From: a virus
Virus record (IMG/VR): IMGVR_UViG_3300033977_000029
Location: 1-20,350 of that record
Direction: 5' to 3' (one strand)
Length of the DNA: 20,350 nt
The notes beneath the pieces are model-generated. The model did not search any database and had not been told where the DNA came from. It saw nothing but the letters and a program-made list of their open reading frames with translations. Positions 1 to 20,254 of the stretch are shown one piece after another. The translations under genes and the position numbers were made by a program. Within the stretch, counting starts at the first letter, position 1, and every line of letters starts with the position of its first letter.

Positions 1-1023
<1,023 letters not shown>

Positions 1024-1026
1024 TCA

Positions 1027-2187
1027 CTAACCGGCGACCCATGACACCACACCATTCGCCGCGACTTGCAACTTATATGTTACTGTTAAAGCAGTGTGAG
1101 CAGGTGGAGACGGCAAACCATTACTCGGTCCTGTTGCCCCAATACCACCTTGCTGCCCGGCGGCACCACTCGGGCCTGTTGCCCCTGTCGCCCCTGTCAC
1201 TCCTGTCTCCCCTTGATCACCAACCGGACCCGTCGGCCCTGTCGCACCAGTCGCACCAACACCAGTAGGACCAGTCGGCCCAGTTGATCCTGTTAGACCG
1301 GTTGCACCAACTGATCCAGTTGCACCTGTCGCGCCAACTGTTCCAGTATCACCTTGAACACCCGGCTCACCCTGCGGTCCTGATGGGCCACCAGCCGGCC
1401 CAGTCGCACCAGCCGGTCCAGTCGGGCCTGCCGGTCCAGTCGGACCAGTTGGGCCAGTTGTGCCAACACCAATCGGGCCGGTTGGGCCAGTTGGGCCGGT
1501 TGCGCCAACACCAGTCGGACCCGTCGCACCAGTGAGACCAGTTTGGCCTGCTCGACCCATTGGCCCACTCGACCCACTTGGCCCACTCGGACCTGTCGGG
1601 CCTGTAGCCCCCGCTCCTGTCGGACCTGTAGCTCCTATTGGACCTGTTGGACCTGTAGCCCCGGATGCTCCACTCGGACCACCTGGAGTACCTGAAGCCC
1701 CGTCGTTACCTGCTGGTCCTGAAGGCCCTGTCGGGCCTGTCGGGCCAGTTGCCCCTGTCACCCCATCCGGTCCAGTATCTCCAACCGGTCCACTTGGTCC
1801 AGTTGCACCATCTGGCCCAGTTTCACCAATCGGCCCAGTTGCTCCAAGTGCCCCTGATGGTCCTGTCGCCCCTACGGCCCCCGACGGTCCTGTTGCCCCT
1901 GCGGCCCCCGTGCCGCCAACATTCCCTTGTGAACCTGGCTCACCTTGCAAACCTTGCGGGCCAGTTGCGCCTGATGGGCCGATTCCGCCTTGCGATCCAG
2001 ATGGGCCACTCGGTCCAGATGGACCACTCGGCCCTGTCGGTCCAGTTGCTCCTGTGGCACCAGTAGCACCGTAGCGACCTTGAATACCTTGTGGGCCTGT
2101 CGGGCCTGTTGCCCCTACGGCACCACCCGAAGGGCCTGTCGCCCCTGTCGCCCCTATCGTTCCTTGTTGTTCATTGTAGATTAACAT
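1027..2187 (-). CDS. Collagen-like (Gly-X-Y) phage structural protein
   Basis: The product has 386 residues. A short N-terminus (MLIYNEQQG) leads into roughly 110 Gly-X-Y triplets ([15 protein letters not shown] types) with few interruptions up to about residue 340. A short C-terminal tail follows ([20 protein letters not shown]), which may act as a trimerisation or attachment segment. The ATG lies three bases after the stop of the preceding gene. GGGGAT upstream is only a weak ribosome binding site, so translational coupling is likely. The next gene downstream is also collagen-like, so the pair may form a fibre shaft or a decorated head/tail surface; this role is inferred from phage collagen-like proteins in general. 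The long proline-rich ORFs on the opposite strand are shadows of the repeat. Confidence 0.9.
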
Positions 2188-2522: not shown

Positions 2523-4611
2523 CTACTCCTCATTCTTTTTTCCCTCGCCTCGGGTCAGCGGTTTGGTGCTGTCAGAGAGGGTTGTGTCTTGACTTGTTGT
2601 TTTCTCGCCTTCAGCCGCCTTATTCGGATCGGTTGAAAGATCAGGCGCGCCACGCGCGGCCGGATTATCCTCTGTTGTCGGCGCGCCGCCTCCACCAGGC
2701 TTACCGGCAGTCTTCATCTGTGCTTGCAGCACACGAATCGCTCGCTGCGCATGGTCCTTGCGAGCCTGAGTGACTTCATCATCCTCGAAGCCCAAAGCAA
2801 TCGAGCCTGTCTTCTCACCGCAGAGTCCATTTTCAACGGCTTGAATAATCGTGTTGACATCACTCGTGATATAAGGTGCCTTGTCGATCTCGTCGTTAAT
2901 ATCCTTGAGATCATCGACATTGATCTTGCCGCCCAAGAGAGCAACTACGATGCATTTCGCCAGTTCTCGCTTGACTTTGCGACCAGGCACGACAGCCATC
3001 AACTTGACGAGTTTGCTAGCCTCCTCGATTCGGTCGTCGTCAGTTCTGATTTGGTAGACATCAGGATATTTGATTGTCGGAATTTCCCGGTGAATCGGGT
3101 TTCGTTCCTCATACGCAGACCAATGCTCTGCAATCTGACGCTCGGCATTCTCCAGAACCAAGCCAATATAAGACAGGCCAGCTTCGAGATTCTGGTTGTC
3201 CATACTCTTCGACTCGGCACTTTGTCGTAGTGCCAAATTTGCAACTGCCAAGTGTACGAGTTTGCGAATCTCATCTTCCAACTTCTCTTGCAAATCCATC
3301 GACGCCTTCAAGGGCTCGCTCGACGGATTGATGAAATTTGGTTGATTCAAGCCTTTCTCATAAGACCGACCCTGTGCTACACCAACCTCAATATTCGTGT
3401 TAGCACTAGGTTGGCCTCCTGTGGTTGCCGTGCCATCGGTAGCGGCCGGCTTGAGATGTGTACCAGCGGCCCTGGAATCTCGTTGCTCTACATAGAACGG
3501 GAAGTTCGACTTCAGAGCGTAGTTGATGTCTGACGAACCGAGATTCAAGAGTGCTATCTGATGATTCACAATATCCTTAATCATGCTGTCGCCAAGGTCA
3601 AGCAGCACGAAGGGAATACGGCGCAACTCCAGTTCATAAACGCCGCCGGGATTCCCGAGACGATCAATCGGGTTGCCGTCCGTATCAAGGAACTGCAAAT
3701 TAACGAGTCCGGTGTCTCGATTGATCCAAAGCATACGGAATCGCTCGACCGTAGTTGTCGGCAAATAAGTCCGCTGATCGTAGTTAAGCACCACGTCGCG
3801 AAGCAAGATTGCTTGAAACTCAGAGGGCTCTTCCGGTTTTGAGCACGTCCAACTTAGGATGTCTTCGATTGGATAGAAATACAAATAGGGACGCTGCTCT
3901 TGTGCCGTGAAAAGCGTCACCTCACCCGTTAAGGCTGGAGCATCCACAAAGACACCTGCACGGCCCATGATTAGCAAATCGGTAAGCACCTTGATGCCTA
4001 AGAAGGCGTTCATGGTTGAGCCACGCTTATCCACGCCAAGATTCAAGCCGTTCGCGGCCGACTGATAGACAGTGGACCCGCCACGGCGCGTAATGTCGCG
4101 CATCCGTTGAAAAATCGCATTGCGCACGTCGTTAATCGCCAGCCTCGCGTAGGCTGGGATCGGCGTCATCTCCAAGCGATCATTGAATTCGAGATCGTCT
4201 TCACGGCGGCTAAACTTCTTGAGATAAAGTTTTCTGAAATATTCGCCACCATTGTAAACGATGCGCCACTTACGCCAATCAAGGAGACTACTGAGGTAAG
4301 AGGGATGCCGTACCTCGACTATATTCGTAATATCGAATTGTTACTGGCTTTCGCCGGACAAGTCATTTCTGCTTGTCTCTCTATGTCGCCATAGAGGCCA
4401 GACTATATCTTCATCCCTTACGGGAGCAGTGCATATAGTCGTTGAGGGTTCAATCAAGAGCCTTTTCCTCTCGAAGCCTTCCCTGCTGATTGCCTGCACC
4501 CATCAGATTTTCACGTAAACGTACTGTGGGATACTCAGGGTTTCCAGCATATAGCACTGTACCTATCACACGTTACCGTATGAGTGAGCAACTACATTAC
4601 TCGACAACCAC
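2523..4611 (-). CDS. Phage portal protein (DUF4055-like), split by a group I intron
   Basis: Read as exon 1 (4611-4599) joined to exon 2 (4333-2523), the gene gives 607 residues. The portal forms the dodecameric DNA gate at the head vertex and works with the terminase. Exon 1 is GTG GTT GTC GAG T, with AAGGAG 8 bases upstream. Joining gives MVVEYITNIVEVRHPSYL. After the HPSYL start come WRKWRIVYNGGEYF and AHARL-like YARLAINDVRNAIFQRM, as in DUF4055/portal-type proteins. The GRAGVFVD motif follows, with a long helical part about residues 340-420 and a polar, Gly/Pro/Thr-rich C-terminal tail. Without splicing, exon 2 meets an in-frame TAA at 4343-4341 and has no ATG or GTG before TTG 4175, which would cost the first 57 residues. 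Family assignment is from recognised motifs, not a search. Confidence 0.9.
4334..4598 (-). ncRNA. Group I self-splicing intron in the portal gene
   Basis: This 265-base intron has no ORF inside it. P1 pairs GAGU|AA with UUGCUC and places a U-G wobble at the 5' splice site. P2 is UCAUACG/CGUGUGA with a GUAA loop. P3 is CAGUGC/GCACUG. P4 is UGCUG/CAGCA, using AAUCAGCAGG as the Q element. P5 uses ACCC/GGGU and P6a is UCGAGAG/CUCUUGA. P7 is GACUAUA (R, 4432-4441 region) with UAUAGUC (S, 4401-4407 region, in AAGAUAUAGUC). P8 has a GUAA loop, P9 is CUCUAUG-GCGA-CAUAGAG, and two more hairpins follow. The last intron base is G (4334). This is the only G-ending 3' site near P9 that keeps the portal frame. 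P10 is weak. The subgroup (IA or IB) is not resolved. Confidence 0.95.
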
Positions 4612-20121: not shown

Positions 20122-20149
20122 AGCATACATCACCGGCAGTATTTGTCAA
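20122..20149 (-). promoter_or_regulatory. Promoter of the serine recombinase gene
   Basis: TTGACA (20149-20144), a perfect -35, and TATGCT (20127-20122), separated by 16 bases. The -35 box abuts the palindrome at 20150-20177, so the promoter is a good candidate for repression by a protein bound there. Confidence 0.8.
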
Positions 20150-20177
20150 GTCAGAAAAAGAGATCGCTTTTTCTGAC
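20150..20177. promoter_or_regulatory. Perfect 11-bp palindrome beside the recombinase promoter
   Basis: GTCAGAAAAAG (20150-20160), loop AGATCG, CTTTTTCTGAC (20167-20177). It touches the -35 box. It may be an operator, a recombination site or a transcript hairpin. There is no T-tract on the minus strand. Confidence 0.75.
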
Positions 20178-20179
20178 AA

Positions 20180-20254
20180 ACCTTAACTTAACACAGCATA
20201 ACCTAACCTAACCTAACAGAACACAACACAACACAACACAACCTTACCTTAATT
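20180..20254. repeat. AACNN pentamer array
   Basis: About 15 units stay in perfect 5-base phase, mostly AACCT (three in a row), AACAC (four in a row), AACAG and AACTT. The minus strand reads TTAGG and GTGTT units. It begins over the stop of the partial gene and runs up to the palindrome. It could be an origin, a packaging or a recombination element; I see no DnaA-type partner sequence. Confidence 0.85.

Follow-up and report, generated by a model that had tools for sequence, protein, structure and literature searches.

A dyad shared with DUF6088 antitoxin promoters and a pentanucleotide tract beside a phage serine recombinase gene

A virus fragment of 20,350 bases (the window, by which we mean the whole stretch of DNA analysed) carries a pentanucleotide tract, a 28-bp dyad and a promoter-like sequence in the interval that separates a gene truncated at the contig boundary from the gene of a small serine recombinase. 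We tentatively read this stretch, at a little short of even odds, as a control region in which a regulator bound to the dyad would gate the recombinase promoter, and in which the tract would have grown by slippage and would be neither an origin of replication nor a working guide array. The dyad would be a binding site of the type found before DUF6088 (AbiEi-type) antitoxin genes, the regulator could come from the host or the phage, and the -35 box of the promoter touches the dyad. The tract, GTTNN on one strand and AACNN on the other, would, if transcribed, form the 3′ end of the upstream gene's transcript, and replication would have expanded it chiefly through slippage. The initial annotation, which had seen an array, a palindrome and a promoter here and offered three functions for them, was sound in its observations apart from small corrections; of the three functions, a regulatory switch is a plausible one for the dyad, given that it matches dyads 11 bp before DUF6088 genes and touches the recombinase -35 box, and a replication origin and a recombination site are both unsupported in the window.

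Layout of the region

The fragment encodes a GpA-type terminase, a portal protein and the small serine recombinase, and the feature stops about 96-98 bases short of the contig end. On the minus strand the order runs from 33 codons and the stop of the cut-off gene through the GTTNN tract and the dyad to TTGACA-N16-TATGCT and the recombinase (Table 1); database searches with those 33 codons returned 0 matches that would identify the gene. Elsewhere in the window, an IS607-type transposon lies within the phage at 16267-17926 (minus strand) and comprises TnpA, a MerR-HTH serine recombinase, and a TnpB-like protein that matches Cas12f1-like TNB weakly, and two long collagen-like Gly-X-Y proteins adjoin the portal gene at 1-2187 (minus strand).

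Table 1. Features of the putative control region, in window coordinates
Feature	Position	Strand	Basis or remark
Upstream gene, C-terminal 33 codons (PSLIEDSRVMKLFYDKLRASGVFHTETAPWPMN), cut by contig end	20252..20350	-	TAA stop immediately before array
Pentanucleotide tract, GTTNN on gene strand (AACNN on +)	20179..20251	-	Repeat analysis
28-bp dyad GTCAGAAAAAGAGATCGCTTTTTCTGAC, 26/28 symmetric	20150..20177	no strand	Symmetry scan and pattern searches
Promoter-like TTGACA-N16-TATGCT of recombinase	20122..20149	-	Promoter scan; TTGAC element kept in homologues
Small serine recombinase, 239 aa	19384..20103	-	Resolvase N-terminal domain; PHROG DNA invertase

The dyad and the recombinase promoter

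The palindrome had been called perfect; it is present and centred on GATC, but one of its pairs is mismatched. With 13 of 14 pairs formed, as compared to at most 11 of 14 in Markov-shuffled copies, it is better than any other dyad of this length within the window. A terminator scan gave 0 hits, and the hairpin was accordingly set aside as an intrinsic terminator.

The dyad recurs in bacteria at a fixed place. Among 84,980 species genomes the exact 28-mer has one match, which lies in a Nitrospiraceae bin; there it precedes a DUF6088 gene that is followed by an AbiEii toxin gene. When 395 Nitrospirota genomes were searched with a pattern of fixed arms and a free 8-nt centre, five places matched when one mismatch was allowed: in two genomes the copy is identical to the window sequence at 28/28 positions, and in three more it has one mismatch. 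All five lie exactly 11 bp upstream of the ATG of a DUF6088 (AbiEi-type antitoxin) gene, the DUF6088 assignment of one, at a contig end (L157), being made from its N-terminal codons alone. In a sample of 148 genomes, 2 of 9 DUF6088 family matches carry the dyad, and an Agrobacterium vitis plasmid has a diverged copy 37 bp 5′ of a DUF6088 gene.

Similarly, GTCAGAAAAA-N8-TTTTTCTGAC is found in 35 other viral contigs, representing about 20 distinct contexts, and a control palindrome of equal composition with scrambled arms is found in 0 viral contigs. The genes near these phage copies vary and include those for an exonuclease, a single-stranded DNA-binding protein, a holin, head-tail proteins, a UvsX-like protein and an integrase; the copies share no neighbour and no consistent promoter, and some fall within long open frames. 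One contig (L203) has the pattern three times in tandem at 4075-4192, in 45-bp copies next to a UvsX-like recombinase gene, and in two others (L190, 5655-5682, and L200) the dyad follows a tyrosine integrase gene, 2 bp past its stop codon, a placement resembling that of an attachment site. A literature search on the dyad sequence gave nothing related among the papers listed. We read the dyad as a predicted sequence-specific protein-binding site. If it truly binds a protein, then one short palindrome would connect bacterial type IV antitoxin promoters with many unrelated phages, and the question would arise of phages having antitoxin operators of their own, responding to them or turning them to use.

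The perfect -35 box reported by the initial annotation (TTGACA, 20149-20144) does abut the dyad directly. The full promoter-like sequence scores 10/12, a level at which 0.7 such matches per region are expected by chance; we take the promoter as real not for its hexamer score but because, of 13 homologous loci (37-55% identity), 11 show TTGAC[A/T] and a matching second hexamer in front of their recombinase gene, as read by eye. The same reading by eye found neither dyad nor array upstream of the recombinase in any of the 13 loci. Therefore, the promoter is likely to be the conserved part and the tract and dyad local additions, and the array is ruled out as a conserved part of the recombinase promoter. 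It had been suggested that the same array be looked for in relatives; apart from its absence at these recombinase loci, the combined array-plus-dyad unit has 0 occurrences elsewhere. A close homologue of the recombinase was not found in Nitrospirota, where the best match has 31% identity.

Gating by the dyad is weakened by several observations. A DUF6088 gene was found in neither the window nor 23 other dyad-bearing phage records, a search set that contains no positive of its own, though the same family search detects the Nitrospirota gene. In addition, adjacency of the dyad to a promoter is inconsistent in other phages, the recombinase homologues do not conserve it, and it stands 46 bp from the recombinase start as compared to 11 bp at DUF6088 genes.

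The pentanucleotide tract and AACNN arrays in viral contigs

Between 20185 and 20244 the plus strand shows AAC at 5-bp intervals, in 12 in-phase units of which 11 are exact and one reads AGC. The array had been described as about 15 pentamers in exact phase, which was slightly generous: that number is reached with the looser units AACCTT (a one-base slip), TACCT and TAATT. Read on the minus strand, the tract consists of GTTGT four times, GTTCT, GTTAG three times, GTTAT, GCTGT, GTTAA, GTTAA and GGTTT, and its NN series is GT GT GT GT CT AG AG AG AT GT AA AA. Eight consecutive AACNN units match twice at the array and 0 times when the window is dinucleotide-shuffled 100 times, far above chance expectation, and the period-5 self-match of 48/60 is the window maximum for that period. 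The exact core of the array has 0 copies among the other viral contigs searched.

Scanning viral contigs for (AACNN)x8, with the array pattern as the only criterion, yielded at least 120 loci (L021-L140), and those listed are of three kinds: arrays with variable NN, tracts inside initiator genes, and plain pentanucleotide tracts. The variable-NN arrays are mostly intergenic, carry GTT on the coding strand and often begin straight after a stop codon. Their form recalls VIPR, whose guide RNAs (vrRNAs) are described in a preprint (PMC13142463): each has 9-16 repeats of YNNGG and a structured tail, a RAMP-like protein (Vipr) binds it, and DNA is read with a one-base skip; the fixed triplet is given there as GGY or a "related consensus". 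As a Vipr query we used a protein from the phage SUSP1 record. It was picked because its gene is flanked by YNNGG arrays and because it has a glycine-rich loop, and comparison with a solved chain, 36pp (SUSP1 Vipr protein), confirmed it. Homologues were recovered next to variable-NN arrays, the lowest E value being 4e-31, and an iterated profile matched at 28 of the 120 loci listed, or 29 with one more from a full record. Among the loci listed, Vipr was found at 0 of 64 with an NN entropy below 1 bit and at 21 of 28 with at least 2.5 bits. The profile also matched CRISPR Csm5 weakly and not significantly (E 0.06).

Because Vipr homologues lie alongside them, the variable GTT/NN arrays are very probably VIPR guide-RNA arrays (loci include L046, L093, L107, L118, L124, L040, L021, L098, L042, L067 and L135), and GTT at these arrays appears to stand in for the published GGY, in a comparison with the main text of the preprint, the type-specific consensus being listed in its supplement. 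In one locus (L093) roughly nine arrays are packed into 630 bp, with GTCGG or GGCGG between them. Another (L119) has VIPR-type arrays at 1050-2650, after each of which comes a hairpin ACAACACC...GTGTTGT that is a plausible invariant tail, and two Vipr-like frames in tandem at 1-333 and 337-891. Thus, (AACNN)n with variable NN offers a sequence-only route to VIPR systems, Vipr homologues occurring in about a quarter of the matches listed. Beside the original feature, this independent recovery of GTT/NN VIPR systems and the dyad that joins antitoxin promoters and phages are the most valuable results of the analysis.

The window tract itself might be such a guide. The minus-strand tract and hairpin would then be a single VIPR guide RNA of about 100 nt, with 12-14 GTT/NN repeats and a structured 3′ tail, lying next to the recombinase promoter and having its vipr gene past the contig end. 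We consider this unlikely, though several properties agree with it. The 12 in-phase units fall within the published 9-16 range, and 11 have exactly GTT, the others reading GCT, GGT or GTC (accepting GTT as the triplet is our own extension of the "related consensus"). GTT is on the gene strand straight after a stop, an 11-bp hairpin follows in phase, Vipr homologues accompany 29 of the 120 loci listed from the array pattern alone, and the last two GTT units are both GTTAA, an ending seen in 8 of 81 VIPR arrays as compared to 1 of 37 others among the loci listed. However, the NN positions are not hypervariable: adjacent NN are identical at 6 of 11 steps (0.55), as compared to a VIPR maximum of 0.38 in the 73 arrays of the loci listed, and the NN entropy is at the bottom of the VIPR range, only 3 of the 73 arrays being as low. 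A profile of 20 Viprs found no match in the window record, which ends about 98 bp beyond the array, and no Vipr was found in 16 records with relatives of the recombinase or SprT. Moreover, the would-be tail is a dyad that occurs elsewhere without any array, the array-plus-dyad unit turned up only at this site, and the whole folds no better than shuffles (z -0.49). A one-base-skip target search over 1.7 Mb gave nothing above background; when 86 guides from real VIPR loci were run through the same method, no target stood out clearly for them either. The window tract is probably not a working guide array, although it might be a degenerate vrRNA.

About as improbable is a replication origin in which the tract would serve in unwinding or loading and the dyad would be bound by the initiator. 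In its favour, phage arrays of similar NN diversity are located inside genes for DnaD-like helicase loaders or replication initiators, right after iteron-like repeats, and the three tandem dyad copies beside the UvsX-like gene are iteron-like in their 45-bp spacing. The AACNN tracts of these initiator genes encode linkers of the PNLTKPNLT type (L036 5877-5921, L072, L125, L094, L113, L048, L073, L084, L130, L061 and L043), and such a tract is a candidate phage-origin element that would also code for the linker. In the window, however, no initiator gene was recognised, no iterons were found, and no skew turn is visible, the site being at the contig end. No open frame of at least 50 aa passes through the tract on the AAC strand, and because the tract is non-coding in the AAC sense it stands outside the initiator-gene class.

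The window array thus appears to fit neither the VIPR nor the initiator-gene class well, and growth by replication slippage is its most likely origin. Slippage is favoured because its share of identical neighbouring NN is of the kind seen in half of the non-VIPR tracts (the window level is reached in 51 of 96, as compared to 0 of 73 VIPR arrays, among the loci listed) and because TRF resolves the tract into two homogeneous parts, TAACC x3.8 and AACAC x5.6.

Other readings of the dyad and comparison with known systems

The dyad might instead be a crossover or attachment site of a recombinase, common to bacterial DNA through phage recombination there, a reading we regard as improbable. It would agree with the dyad's place only 46 bp from a serine recombinase, with its exact 28-bp identity to bacterial DNA between unrelated flanks, with the copy 2 bp after a tyrosine integrase gene (L190) and with the free 8-nt centre. 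Yet the bacterial copies all stand at the same operator-like distance, 11 bp, from genes of one family, and of the phage copies examined most have no recombinase as a neighbour. A crossover site of a small serine recombinase would be expected to be kept beside its homologues, but 0 of the 13 homologue upstream regions show the dyad; the core shared with bacterial DNA leaves this proposal of the initial annotation some room. Least probable, and quite unlikely, is a decoy that would titrate a host AbiEi-type repressor or antitoxin and so disturb type IV toxin-antitoxin defence, for although the dyad occurs in about 20 distinct phage contexts without a DUF6088 gene, it is mostly single-copy per phage and titration would derepress the antitoxin operon.

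Returning to the control region that we favour, its parts can be set against three known systems. Like the VIPR vrRNA arrays (PMC13142463), the window tract has a fixed triplet with two free bases on the gene strand, a post-stop position, a 3′ hairpin and a length of about 100 nt; unlike them, it has GTT and not GGY, low NN diversity and runs of identical units, a Vipr was not found for the window, and its hairpin is common to unrelated loci. With the AACNN tracts of DnaD-like and initiator genes it shares the AACNN phase and a moderate NN diversity, but those tracts are coding and follow iteron-like repeats, whereas the window tract is intergenic and has no iterons. The closest comparison is with the operators of AbiEi/DUF6088 genes of the type IV toxin-antitoxin system AbiE. 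The window dyad differs from these in its position, since it has a recombinase gene and not an antitoxin gene as its neighbour and lies upstream of the -35 box. In other systems AbiEi is reported to autoregulate through inverted repeats (PMC7319586), and in sequence the window dyad is identical, at 28/28 positions, to Nitrospirota copies located 11 bp before DUF6088.
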